Assembly: GCF_025377685.1 (NCBI RefSeq)
Contig: NZ_JACEHK010000006.1
Coordinates: 124,001-188,000, forward strand
Length of the DNA: 64,000 nucleotides
Source of the DNA: Anaerobacillus sp. CMMVII
Lineage (GTDB): Bacteria > Bacillota > Bacilli > Bacillales > Anaerobacillaceae
Reading direction: 5' to 3'
A program made the translations under genes and the position numbers. Below, in pieces: positions 43,554 to 50,276 of the stretch. Within the stretch, counting starts at the first letter, position 1, and every line of letters begins with the position of its first letter. The notes below the pieces were generated by a model that was not told the origin of the DNA, did no database searches, and saw only the letters and a list, made by a program, of their open reading frames with translations.

Positions 43554-44009
43554 TTACTGTGAGGTTTCCGTTCTGGCCTCAACGTCAAATAGCCTTTGAT
43601 TTAATACTTTTATTTGGCTGTCTTTTTTCTCCACTTGTTTCTTAACATGAAGTAACAATCCCACAATGGTTTCTTCTTGGTGGGACTCAATGCGAACAAC
43701 AGTATTCTTAATATCTTTAACATCATTTTTCAAAGTTGTAACGTCATTTTTTAGAGTTAATACGTCATTTTTCAAAGTTGAGACATCACTTTTTAGAGTT
43801 GATACGTCATTTTTCAAAGTTGTAACGTCATTTTTTAGAGTTAATACGTCATTTTTCAAAGTTGAGACATCACTTTTTAGAGTTGATACGTCATTTTTCA
43901 AAGTTGAAATATCTTTTTTCATGTCTTTCACTTCAAAATGTAAAGAACTTAATTGTCTTTCAGTTCTTGCTTGTCCTTCTAAAATTTGTTTAAGTAACTC
44001 TTCCATCAT
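43554..44009 (-). CDS. Heptad-repeat coiled-coil protein
   Basis: This is a protein of about 151 residues whose middle third is an almost perfect run of seven-residue repeats (variants of STLKNDV, with LTLKNDV, TTLKNDV and STLKSDV). A hydrophobic Leu and Val recur at positions a and d, so it should form a long parallel coiled coil. No membrane segment or catalytic motif is present. The C-terminal part (RIESHQEETIVGLLLHVKKQVEKK) is also helical. ATG at 44009 follows AAGGAGG. The function is unknown; related Bacillus proteins are simply called coiled-coil or hypothetical. The gene stands alone. Confidence 0.75.
   Translation of the reverse strand: MMEELLKQILEGQARTERQLSSLHFEVKDMKKDISTLKNDVSTLKSDVSTLKNDVLTLKNDVTTLKNDVSTLKSDVSTLKNDVLTLKNDVTTLKNDVKDIKNTVVRIESHQEETIVGLLLHVKKQVEKKDSQIKVLNQRLFDVEARTETSQ
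43733..43910. repeat. 21-base tandem repeats arranged in an 84-base higher-order unit
   Basis: Within the coiled-coil gene, the 21-base heptad unit (for example ACGTCATTTTTCAAAGTTG) recurs without gaps. Groups of four units form an 84-base block that appears about twice with nearly no change, which points to recent slippage or unequal crossing-over. Confidence 0.85.
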
Positions 44010-44140
44010 TATCACCTCCTTCCCTTAAGTATAACATGAAATAGAGGATGAGTAATCCACTGAAAATATCCTGATTAAAATCGCTTCTTCATTGATAATG
44101 TCCATAACAACTAGGTTCTTTCCCTTAAACTTGTTTCTTT

Positions 44141-47173: not shown

Positions 47174-48334
47174 CTATCTAGCTAAATGGTATATATGATG
47201 AACGTCTTCTTCAGACAATTTCACAAAGTTACCAAGCGGACCTCTTTCTGTCGCCTTTTTCGCCATCTTCTCAAGGTGCTCGTCGCCGATACCTACTTCT
47301 GTCAAAGTGATTGGCATTCCAATAGAACGGAAGAACTGTTCTATTTTATTAATTCCTGCTAGAGCTGTTTTTTCTAGATCATTCAAATCAATTTCTACAT
47401 CCCACACTCGATTAGCAAATTGTGCAAATCTCTTTACGTCATGCTTGTAGACGTATTTCATCCATGCTGGGAAAATAATTGCTAGTCCAGCTCCGTGCGC
47501 GATATCATAAATCCCGCTAATTTCATGCTCAATATCATGGCTTGCCCAATCACCAATTCTCCCCGTTCCTAATGAGTCATTATGGGCGATTGTCCCAGCC
47601 CACATGATCTCCGCGCGAGCATCATAATTCGTTGGATTCTCTAGAACTGTATGTGCATTATTAATGATTGTTTTTAAGGTTGCTTCACATAATCGATCCG
47701 TCAGCTCTACATTTTTTTCGTTCGTAAAATATCTTTCTAAAATATGGGCGATCATGTCTGTAATCCCGCAAGCTGTTTGATATGAAGGTAATGTATATGT
47801 AAGAACTGGATTTAGGATCGCAAACTGTGGCCTCATCGTATCGTGTCCAGTTGCTCTCTTATACAAGCCATCTTCGTTTGTAATGACTGTTCCTGTACTT
47901 GTTTCACTACCTGCAGCAGGGATGGTAAGCACAACCCCTATTGGTAAGCACTCTGTTACTGGTTTTCCAGTGAAGAAGTCCCAGACATCTCCCTCATATT
48001 TCGCACCTGCAGCAATTGCCTTCGCAGAATCAATAACACTTCCACCCCCTACGGCGAGGATGAAATCAATGTTATTTTCCTTACAAATTGAAACACCTTC
48101 ACGAACCAGGCTAACTCTGGGATTAGGTTGAACATCACCAAGTTCAAAGATCTCAATGCTTTGCTCACGTAAAGACGTAACGACACTATCGTATAAACCC
48201 GTGCTCTTAATACTGCCTCCACCATAATGCAGCAGAAGCTTTTTTCCATACTTGATAGACTCTTCCCCGACTGTAGCTTCTGTATCTTTGCCAAAAATAA
48301 TCTTTGTACTATTACGAAAAACAAAATTTTGCAT
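47174..48334 (-). CDS. Iron-containing alcohol dehydrogenase (YugJ/BdhA-like)
   Basis: The 386-residue enzyme is a group III dehydrogenase reducing aldehydes such as butanal with NAD(P)H. The nucleotide-binding part shows AVGGGSVIDSAKAIAAG and TIPAAGSETS; the metal ligands are in DMIAHILERYF and HEISGIYDIAHGAGLA. Length fits the YugJ/YugK family. The start ATG follows AAGGGGGAA. An insertion sequence lies 16 bases upstream of the start codon, between the ribosome site and a good promoter now at 50196-50224, so native transcription is probably cut off. The coding frame itself is intact. Confidence 0.93.
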   Translation of the reverse strand: MQNFVFRNSTKIIFGKDTEATVGEESIKYGKKLLLHYGGGSIKSTGLYDSVVTSLREQSIEIFELGDVQPNPRVSLVREGVSICKENNIDFILAVGGGSVIDSAKAIAAGAKYEGDVWDFFTGKPVTECLPIGVVLTIPAAGSETSTGTVITNEDGLYKRATGHDTMRPQFAILNPVLTYTLPSYQTACGITDMIAHILERYFTNEKNVELTDRLCEATLKTIINNAHTVLENPTNYDARAEIMWAGTIAHNDSLGTGRIGDWASHDIEHEISGIYDIAHGAGLAIIFPAWMKYVYKHDVKRFAQFANRVWDVEIDLNDLEKTALAGINKIEQFFRSIGMPITLTEVGIGDEHLEKMAKKATERGPLGNFVKLSEEDVHHIYHLAR

Positions 48335-48349
48335 ATGTATTCCCCCTTA

Positions 48350-48357
48350 TTTTCATA
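48350..48357. repeat. Left target-site duplication of the IS
   Basis: TTTTCATA here matches TTTTCATA at 50189-50196 on the other side of the element. Confidence 0.75.
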
Positions 48358-48506
48358 CGTATTGTCAAAACTTTATATAGAAATAGGCTATTAAATCCTT
48401 TATTAGAGGGCTTTATAAGCAAAAAACTTGCCACCCCCCGGATTCTAAGTTATTAGTGAGGTAACCACACACACACTAAGATCCCTTAGAAAGGAAGAGT
48501 GACAAG

Positions 48507-49940
48507 TTGTTACCTCAAATTATAACCTATTTACTTACTTTTATAAACTACCAAGAACAAGTGATTCGAACGTTGCTTACCCTATTAATCGGGAAAAGTA
48601 TGTTTGATAAACCAACTGAAGTTCCAGTAAATAAACCTTATCGAAAACTTCAAGTGGATGATCTTCCGATCATTGAGGTTCCAAAGAAACTAGATTTTCA
48701 ACTTCTGTTATCTGAACATCTAGAGTCTAAAGGGAAACCTCTTAAACCAGTCCAAAGACGGTCGAATTCAACACCAGTTCCTTCATCAATGAAATGTCCA
48801 ACGTGTGGTGCTCCAGCTGATTACTTGTATGCCAATAATGGGGCGAAAGGACAATATCAATGTAAGGTGTGTACGTGTCTTTTCAGTGAAAAAAACCGCT
48901 ATCTAAAGGAAACAATCCTGAAATGCCCTCACTGTTCAAAAACACTAGAAAAAGTGAAAGAAAGAAAAGACTTCCATGTGTACAAGTGTAAAAATGATGC
49001 TTGTTCTTATTACCAAAAGAAACGAAATGCGATGACTCAAAAAGAGAAAAATAGGTTCAAGAAAGATCCCCAAGCCTTTAAACTTCGCTATATTTACCGC
49101 CAATTTCACATTGATTTTCAACCGTTAGCGAAGCATTCACCAAAGAGGCCGAGAGTTGATCTATCAAGAATTTATGTGTCTCCATATACACTTGGACTTA
49201 TCCTTACTTATCACGTCAATTATGGTCTGTCAGCTCGCAAAACAGCTGCTTTAATGAAGGATATCCATGGTGTTTCTATTTCTCACCAAAGCATTTTAAA
49301 CTACGAGAATAGTGTTGCCTTATGGTTGAAACCTTTTACTGATCACTATCCTTATGAACTCTCTGACCAATTCTGTGGGGACGAAACGTACATCCGTGTA
49401 AATGGCCGTTGGCATTACCTGTTTTTCTTCTTTGACGCTGTAAAGAAAGTGATACTCTCTTACCCAGTGTCACCTAACCGAGATACAGCAACCGCCATAA
49501 AAGCGATTGACGAAGTATTACTAAAGCTTAAGAAAATACCTGAGAACCTTACATTTGTGGTTGATGGAAATCCAATTTACTTGTTAGCTCAACATTTCTT
49601 TGCCCAGCATCAAATCCCTTTTGAGGTCATTCAAGTGATTGGCTTGACGAACGAAGATGAAGTTTCAAAGGAATACAGACCTCTCAAACAAATTATTGAG
49701 CGACTAAATCGAACCTTTAAAGGGAACTATCGGTCAACTCATGGATTCGGTTCAGAACATGGTTCTGTTTCATTCGTGACATTATTTGTCGCTTACTTCA
49801 ACTTTCTAAGACCTCATTCGGCCTTAGAAGGAAAAGTGCCTGTGACCATACCAGAGCTAGAAAAGCTTCCAAACATGCCTGCTAGATGGACAACTCTTAT
49901 TGGTCTAGCCCAGGATTGGATCAGCGAACAAAGAGCCTAA
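48507..49940 (+). CDS. DDE transposase with zinc ribbons
   Basis: This is a 477-residue transposase. Residues about 96-175 hold two Cys-x2-Cys zinc-ribbon pairs (CPTCGAP...CKVC and CPHCSK...CKNDAC). A helix-turn-helix-like stretch follows (YGLSARKTAALMKDIHGVSI). The RNase H-fold catalytic domain has Asp292 in CGDETYIR, Asp353 in FVVDGNPIY and Glu398 in IIERLNRTFK. It cuts and joins the IS ends. The start is TTG at 48507, 10 bases after GAAAGGAAGAG. The frame is unbroken. Confidence 0.9.
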   Translation: MLPQIITYLLTFINYQEQVIRTLLTLLIGKSMFDKPTEVPVNKPYRKLQVDDLPIIEVPKKLDFQLLLSEHLESKGKPLKPVQRRSNSTPVPSSMKCPTCGAPADYLYANNGAKGQYQCKVCTCLFSEKNRYLKETILKCPHCSKTLEKVKERKDFHVYKCKNDACSYYQKKRNAMTQKEKNRFKKDPQAFKLRYIYRQFHIDFQPLAKHSPKRPRVDLSRIYVSPYTLGLILTYHVNYGLSARKTAALMKDIHGVSISHQSILNYENSVALWLKPFTDHYPYELSDQFCGDETYIRVNGRWHYLFFFFDAVKKVILSYPVSPNRDTATAIKAIDEVLLKLKKIPENLTFVVDGNPIYLLAQHFFAQHQIPFEVIQVIGLTNEDEVSKEYRPLKQIIERLNRTFKGNYRSTHGFGSEHGSVSFVTLFVAYFNFLRPHSALEGKVPVTIPELEKLPNMPARWTTLIGLAQDWISEQRA

Positions 49941-49980
49941 CTTTTGTTTAGCAGAGCCCTTTCTAGCCAGCGGCGAAGCG

Positions 49981-50117
49981 AACTCTTGACAAACCGAACT
50001 CGCCAATGGTTTAAAATGGAAATAACCAAGGGTTTATTTGGCATGCCATCTTTTGTCCGCTTCGCCCTTGTTAAACCTCACTCTAAACCATTGGCGTGTT
50101 TGTCAAGAGCGATGGCG
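49981..50117. repeat. Long inverted repeat inside the IS 3' region
   Basis: CTCTTGACAAACCGAACTCG then CCAATGGTTTA near 49983-50013 is mirrored by TAAACCATTGGCG and TGTTTGTCAAGAG near 50091-50115. The RNA would form an imperfect stem of about 27 pairs. An open frame at 49944-50219 runs through it but has no homology or site and is not called. Confidence 0.7.
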
Positions 50118-50188
50118 GGAGCTACCCCCAGATTAATTGGTAGAAAGTTTCATCAGCCTTTAGTTTTCATAGAACTTTTGACACTTCC

Positions 50189-50196
50189 TTTTCATA
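50189..50196. repeat. Right target-site duplication of the IS
   Basis: TTTTCATA, an exact copy of 48350-48357. Confidence 0.75.
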
Positions 50197-50224
50197 TAGT
50201 AAGCCTTCGAGGGGATTAAAACAA
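50196..50224 (-). promoter_or_regulatory. Displaced sigma-A promoter of the alcohol dehydrogenase gene
   Basis: On the minus strand TTGTTT (50219-50224) and TACTAT (50196-50201) are 17 bases apart. If the IS is removed together with one duplication, this promoter lies about 30 bases upstream of the dehydrogenase start. Confidence 0.6.
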
Positions 50225-50276
50225 GTGTTTGCATCATAAGGTAAAGCTACCCTCTTTACTACTGAATAGTTGTGAG

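Follow-up and report, generated by a model that had tools for sequence, protein, structure and literature searches.

According to published accounts, cited throughout from extracts of each source, TnGBS and the ISLre2 elements insert in a fixed orientation 15–17 bp upstream of the −35 box of sigma-A promoters, a mode of insertion proposed to limit harm to the host, and some elements of the ISKra4 group also insert near promoters (PMC3942029). Within the IS6 family, the clade termed i in PMC7986276 and VIII in PMC6807381 (ISTet2, ISHahy6, ISHco2) comprises elements of just over 1.7 kb that make an 8-bp target duplication and encode a transposase of about 450 residues with a zinc finger and an N-terminal extension, while clade h or VII (ISCpe7, ISTps1 and others) has a zinc-finger transposase of about 340 residues. 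The extracts describing these zinc-finger clades state no target rule (PMC7986276, PMC6807381). IS6 elements often activate their neighbours through outward or hybrid promoters (PMC7986276), and IS-borne terminators lying directly upstream of unrelated genes have been described as mobile attenuators (Naville and Gautheret 2010, PMC2965389).

The window, that is, the whole stretch of 64,000 nucleotides analysed here (G000:C6:124001-188000, from the 4.87 Mb draft genome of Anaerobacillus sp. CMMVII), contains an IS6-related insertion sequence (IS) inserted directly in front of a gene for an iron-containing alcohol dehydrogenase (ADH). TnGBS and ISLre2 are its closest precedent in kind, since they too use a DDE transposase, insert in one orientation, keep a constant distance to a signal that marks the gene start and spare coding sequence; however, they belong to the Mutator-like superfamily and seek promoters (PMC3942029), whereas the signal here is a Shine-Dalgarno sequence with an ATG, and an insertion downstream of the promoter would detach it. 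With clade i/VIII, whose named members were compared by description only, the element shares the build of its transposase and the 8-bp duplication, and it differs in its length and in its Bacillaceae-type hosts. It resembles IS26, IS257 and ISS1 in its IS240-type DDE domain, 8-bp duplication, similar terminal repeats and a TTGACA-like −35 hexamer within the repeat, but these lack the zinc finger, ten ordinary copies showed no such target, and hybrid promoters are frequent among them (PMC7986276). Mobile attenuators are attributed to near-random insertion followed by decay of the IS (PMC2965389), in contrast to the target rule found here and to a hairpin that forms part of the left end of intact elements. 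In the descriptions found, promoter-seeking Mutator-like elements are the only ones known to insert at gene starts in a set orientation and at a set distance, and the open-licence literature of PubMed Central yielded no description of an IS that targets Shine-Dalgarno sequences or start codons.

Results and Discussion

The element and its transposase

The features of the locus are collected in Table 1. The original prediction had placed an IS between two exact 8-bp copies of TTTTCATA, with a transposase gene running opposite to that of ADH. Both points are borne out by the letters of the window, and the first also by another genome of the genus, G004, which holds 30 matches to the IS, 28 of them full-length and 88–89% identical. 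In 27 of these 28 the same two boundaries are flanked by an exact 8-bp duplication proper to that copy (L045 is the sole full-length copy without one). Because so many copies break identically, each with its own duplication, the boundaries and the duplication in the window are not attributable to chance, and the ends of the element can be regarded from this comparison as well established.

Table 1. Features at the insertion site, in window coordinates
Feature	Position	Strand	Remarks
ADH, iron-containing alcohol dehydrogenase	47174..48334	-	386 aa, intact, target gene; Fe-ADH match
ADH ATG	48332..48334	-	offset 23 from IS left end
GGGGG	48342..48346	-	Shine-Dalgarno core of ADH, also a component of the target signal; offset 11-15 from IS left end
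Left copy of 8-bp duplication, TTTTCATA	48350..48357	.	exact
Insertion sequence, 1831 bp	48358..50188	+	IS6-related; zinc finger and N-terminal extension
Left terminal repeat, CGTATTGTCAAAACTTTA	48358..48375	+	read outward, TTGACA 5 bp from tip
Terminator-like hairpin with T run	48420..48508	-	outward, facing ADH; -35 kcal/mol, z -4.88
Transposase, 477 aa	48507..49940	+	TTG start; DDE_Tnp_IS240 domain; Cys-pair motifs at residues 97-166
TTTATA-17-TATAAT match	48519..48547	-	may start a short antisense RNA that would end at the hairpin; matches in region not above shuffles
Conserved structured region after transposase frame	49969..50119	+	compensatory changes in 12/30 pairs
Right terminal repeat, GGAAGTGTCAAAAGTTCT	50171..50188	-	12/18 identical to left repeat
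Right copy of 8-bp duplication, TTTTCATA	50189..50196	.	exact
Weak promoter candidate TTGTTT-17-TACTAT	50196..50224	-	now firing into IS right end

The transposase scores 35.7 bits against PF13610 (cut-off 27), as expected of an IS240/IS6-type DDE domain, and 72 bits against NF033587, the NCBIfam IS6 equivalog, for which the cut-off is 125; because of this second score the element is called IS6-related rather than an ordinary IS6. None of its three Pfam and four NCBIfam hits is to a Mutator-like transposase, all being to DDE_Tnp_IS240, rve types, IS6, IS66, IS3 and IS481. The 8-bp duplication expected of IS6 is found at the window copy and at 27 of the 28 G004 copies, and of the IS6 terminal pattern (GG tips with a TGT...AAA motif) the right end has GG, the left end CG, and both contain TGTCAAAA. 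Cysteine pairs are present at residues 97/100, 140/143 and 161/166 in all 17 rows compared and at 119/122 in 16 of 17, and residues 1–33 are hydrophobic. At 477 residues and 1831 bp, the protein and the element display the traits given for clade i/VIII (zinc finger, N-terminal extension with a hydrophobic start, about 450 residues, over 1.7 kb). An AlphaFold2 model built on 12 sequences had a mean pLDDT of 47.

A second, partial copy in the same genome (G000:C4:109824-111190) is 99.8% identical over 1367 bp and has a different right flank. This copy stops exactly at the end of its contig; the assembly therefore probably breaks at this repeat, and more copies may be hidden.

Position of insertions relative to translation starts

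Related elements were taken from 78 loci, obtained from the best 80 of 113 matches. From 99 complete elements, one with an N in its left flank, eight tandem-internal junctions and one repeated flank were removed, leaving 89 distinct non-tandem sites that include the window copy and of which 71 have an exact duplication; L119, L131, L132 and L139 do not enter the count of left ends. Left flanks, and only left flanks, carry a C-tract at −8 to −4, which on the other strand is a Shine-Dalgarno sequence, followed by an ATG. In 69 of the 89 sites this ATG has an offset of exactly 23 bp from the left end, and in 11 more an offset of 24; offsets 22–26 contain one in 82/89, the sites coming from 20 host labels, with 27 each from G004 and Heyndrickxia. 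At other positions of the left flank ATG occurs on average 1.9 times in 89 (maximum 8), and a count of at least 69/89 would arise from the base rate with a probability of about 10^-95. The base at offset 12 is G in 82 sites and that at offset 15 in 81, a Shine-Dalgarno core falls at offset 10–17 in 76 of the 89 left flanks, and core and ATG at 22–26 occur together in 70/89 left flanks versus 0/81 right flanks, the right side having ATG at 23 in 2/81 and a core in 1/81. GTG or TTG was never seen at offset 23 (0/89). Exceptions are the seven sites without ATG at 22–26 and the 13 in which the core pattern fails. Frames of at least 100 codons are opened by 65 of the 89 targets, against 8/99 on the right side, and none of the 89 insertions was seen inside such a frame. 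The order displayed by these flanks, outward from the left end, is thus the 8-bp duplication, 3 bp, the Shine-Dalgarno core and an ATG at 23 (or 24), the transposase gene being divergent. The ADH site, laid out as TATGAAAA-TAA-GGGGGA-ATACAT-ATG, fits, so that the position of this insertion, judged against its relatives, is no accident but the target rule of the element. The original prediction had overlooked this rule, as it had the terminator-like hairpin facing outward from the left end.

Nineteen of the 89 insertions precede frames of fewer than 60 codons (e.g. L017, L063, L066, L080), and most of these keep core and ATG; their targets may be genes that are small or in decay, or the signal may be matched there by chance.

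The same arrangement recurs beyond the 89 sites. Among 299 sampled genomes of the order, 29 loci were obtained. Four of these were not used (an N, a short flank or a missing 5' end), 11 were already among the 89, and 14 provided 13 distinct sites, three of them (L197, L199, L200) sharing their left flanks with the cut elements L084, L094 and L103. All 13 have ATG at 22–26, ten of them at 23, and the core pattern is present in nine and fails in four. Of seven cut elements that retain a left flank, six (L084, L094, L101, L103, L122, L123) have ATG at 23–24, and L120 has no start codon there. Long relatives at 43–69% identity conform as well, with ATG at 23 in Pediococcus (L129), L. brevis (L130) and Geobacillus (L133) and at 24 in a second Geobacillus copy (L128). 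A further group (L103, L137, L138, L140, L141, L148, L149, L153, L156, L158) has it at 23–24 in 9/10. ATT stands in its place at 24 in L153 and at 23 in L088.

I consider it very likely that the long zinc-finger branch of IS6-related elements selects translation start regions, a reading that takes in recognition of the motif by the transposase itself and the silencing of ADH. In its more specific form, which I hold to be probable, the transposase of this branch would read in DNA a Shine-Dalgarno sequence and an ATG at a set spacing, its zinc finger fixing the former and, in the long form, the extra N-terminal part fixing the latter as well. Each copy would then act as an off-switch for its target gene: because the target sits between promoter and ribosome site, insertion would detach the promoter and leave the frame untouched, while the outward hairpin, a terminator facing the intact gene, would halt transcription reading through the element. 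If an IS group does seek ribosome-binding sites, this would account for a genome harbouring many copies (28 full-length ones in one relative) without broken frames, and would predict which of its genes have lost their promoters. Such a group would also be a simple system in which to study how target choice is set by a domain of the transposase.

Predicted effect on the alcohol dehydrogenase gene

The ADH frame is intact, as had been claimed (386 codons are open and match Fe-ADH), and the position of the IS confirms that the gene is severed from all sequence upstream of its ribosome-binding site; the distance of about 30 bases given for the promoter is roughly correct for the rejoined sequence. 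What does not hold is that the intact frame suggests a recent event. Since elements of this type insert outside coding sequence as a rule, the frame is expected to be intact at any age, and an intact gene beside such an IS is no sign of recency if the frame is spared by rule.

The promoter itself, TTGTTT-17-TACTAT (minus strand, 50224-50196), stands in part. The hexamer pair is present and stays whole to the right of the IS, but it matches the consensus at only 3/6 and 4/6 positions and is absent from the list of a consensus promoter scan (threshold 4/6 per hexamer), which found matches in the region to be no more numerous than in shuffled sequence. Three ADH orthologues in the genus with a visible upstream region are 81–83% identical; none carries the element at this place, and their neighbouring genes are different (in a fourth, from G005, the contig end removes the upstream region). 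By eye, the G001 orthologue has TTGCTT-17-TAGTAT, spaced from its ATG almost as here, and those of G002 and G003 show no clear counterpart. The original prediction had named a different upstream sequence in relatives as evidence against it; most of the upstream sequence and the gene neighbours do differ in the three orthologues, the similar pair in G001 being the part that agrees. Promoter loss thus leans more on geometry than on the hexamers, because any driver further upstream is now 1839 bp away.

Possible catabolite (CcpA, cre-like) sites lie near this promoter and upstream of the orthologues at L124-L126, with TGCAAACACTTGTT here (50196-50245, minus strand) and TGCAAGCGCTTGCT in G001. A CcpA operator was set aside, the match here to the presumed consensus being poor. 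Elsewhere in the window a heptad-like repeat protein (LKNDVSTLKSDV...) is encoded at 43554-44015 (minus strand), and a similar heptad-like protein lies directly upstream of the G002 orthologue of ADH (L125:4588-5019, minus strand).

None of 200 shuffles of the left end gave a hairpin as stable as that observed. By a simple test (a stem adjoining the T run, below −18 kcal/mol), the same form is found in 27 of 28 distinct left-end segments, drawn from 65 left ends, and it is kept with different letters in Pediococcus L129 and in L140 of G118. Across the 89 sites a −10-like hexamer occurs at hybrid-promoter spacing in one, versus ten in each of two control windows; although an outward TTGACA does lie 5 bp from the tip, hybrid promoters are nearly excluded because the −10 hexamer that would pair with it at the usual spacing coincides with the Shine-Dalgarno sequence. 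Given the outward hairpin and this unfavourable geometry, ADH is predicted to be detached and poorly transcribed, and is probably silent or much reduced.

The opposite outcome would be that an outward promoter in the left end, starting within its outer 60 bp, has rewired ADH instead of silencing it. Such promoters are common in IS6 elements (PMC7986276), and TATATAAAG lies about 15–20 bp inside the left end when read outward; yet the scan lists no minus-strand promoter-like pair between hairpin and ADH, the hybrid geometry fails at 88/89 sites, and the internal TATAAT-type match sits upstream of the outward hairpin, that is, behind it. I therefore regard rewiring as rather unlikely, and silencing remains the preferred prediction.

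The TATAAT-type match followed by the hairpin (48420-48547, minus strand) might also define a short antisense RNA over the start of the transposase gene. An antisense RNA covering the transposase start is known for IS10.

Recognition of the target

Shorter relatives bear on how the two parts of the signal are chosen. In G058, whose zinc-finger transposase has about 342 residues, 11/11 copies have GGAG at exactly offset 13 together with an exact duplication, while ATG lies at 23–26 in ten copies and at 30 in one. A copy of the same short type on a Cetobacterium plasmid (L134) has GGGGG at 13–17, ATG at 24 and an exact duplication. These elements, placed near clade h/VII by size and description only, lack the long N-terminal extension; both land at a Shine-Dalgarno sequence, and, to judge from their sites, the short type fixes this sequence and not the ATG, whose distance is unfixed. 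Ordinary IS6 elements without a zinc finger displayed a core or ATG signal in 0/10 copies, from few hosts and none with an identified duplication; this control is small, a search of 299 genomes having yielded three copies, all in one genome; it was supplemented with Lactococcus plasmid copies and one copy from Alicyclobacillus. On these small samples (for the short type, one genome and one plasmid copy), short zinc-finger relatives appear to share the preference for Shine-Dalgarno sequences and ordinary IS6 copies do not, which implicates the zinc finger in that choice. An additional ATG anchor in the long type is suggested by the distance from the start of the core match to the ATG, which is 12–14 bp in 66 of 83 long-type sites with ATG in range versus 95 of 201 background ATG starts, called mechanically, and by the one exact offset in 69/89. 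On this assignment the zinc finger would fix the Shine-Dalgarno sequence and the long form the ATG too.

A rival view is that only a G-tract is recognised, which in AT-rich genomes is mostly a Shine-Dalgarno sequence, the ATG following passively. This would suit the short type, fixed on GGAG with a variable distance to ATG, as well as the overlap between the core-ATG distances of long-type sites and those of background genes. However, the best single core-ATG distance accounts for at most 41 of 201 background starts, whereas long-type elements have ATG at one offset in 69/89; GTG and TTG are never found at 23 although they make up 105 of 306 mechanically called background starts; and four sites with a weak core (L192, L194, L201, L202) nevertheless keep ATG at 23–24. 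Passive placement of the ATG is thus unlikely, and recognition of both signals by the long form is retained.

Another possibility is that the transposase, without reading DNA itself, is tethered at gene starts by a host factor from the apparatus of transcription or translation, or that one of the element's own RNAs guides it. Shine-Dalgarno sequence and ATG are what ribosome and initiator tRNA read, and for TnGBS a contact with the initiation complex of RNA polymerase has been proposed (PMC3942029); as for guiding, the element has two conserved structured regions. That after the transposase frame (49969-50119) is conserved in 28 sequences, with a covariation of 0.192 versus a shuffled mean of 0.083 (none of 500 shuffles as high), a signal destroyed by sliding the partners. 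Among one-sided changes I counted 18 G-U cells against 5 A-C cells, and this excess of G-U favours a structure on the transposase strand. A 3' RNA of the element is possible; Rfam gave no match within the IS at E up to 1. Its involvement in targeting is disfavoured because Pediococcus L129 and L. brevis L130 target alike and have, by eye, no counterpart of the region, and a guide match in it (CAU, then CCUCC) was dropped since the loop CAT is not conserved among elements, again by eye. Against tethering or guiding stand the base-exact offset, the like targeting by L129 and L130, and the targets in front of very short frames, so that recognition without DNA reading appears improbable and direct reading by the transposase is preferred. 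Coding by a 91-codon frame that overlaps the structured region (49944-50219) is likewise disfavoured, in view of single-base length differences among relatives. Random insertion with survival only of copies just outside coding sequence would agree with the 65 long target frames and the lack of insertions inside one, but selection cannot set one exact offset or a one-sided signal (69/89 versus 2/81), ordinary IS6 copies lack the pattern (0/10), and the offset distribution refutes this account unless that distribution is an artefact of the sample, which makes the account barely credible.

Tandem copies and possible reuse of one site

Tandem copies exactly 8 bp apart occur in G004, where L028/L019 show the same 8 bp three times, and further tandems with an 8-bp gap are found at L052-L055, L064, L089 and L117. 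Such tandems are expected if a second copy reuses the target, because the signal remains beside the left end. Several sites in B. dakarensis hold pairs that share an identical inner TTCCCATT but differ in their outer flanks (L053, L055, L052/L117), and at L054 the outer flank is TTCCCATT as well. Since the same inner 8 bp recur between different outer flanks, the tandem pair seems to move as a unit.
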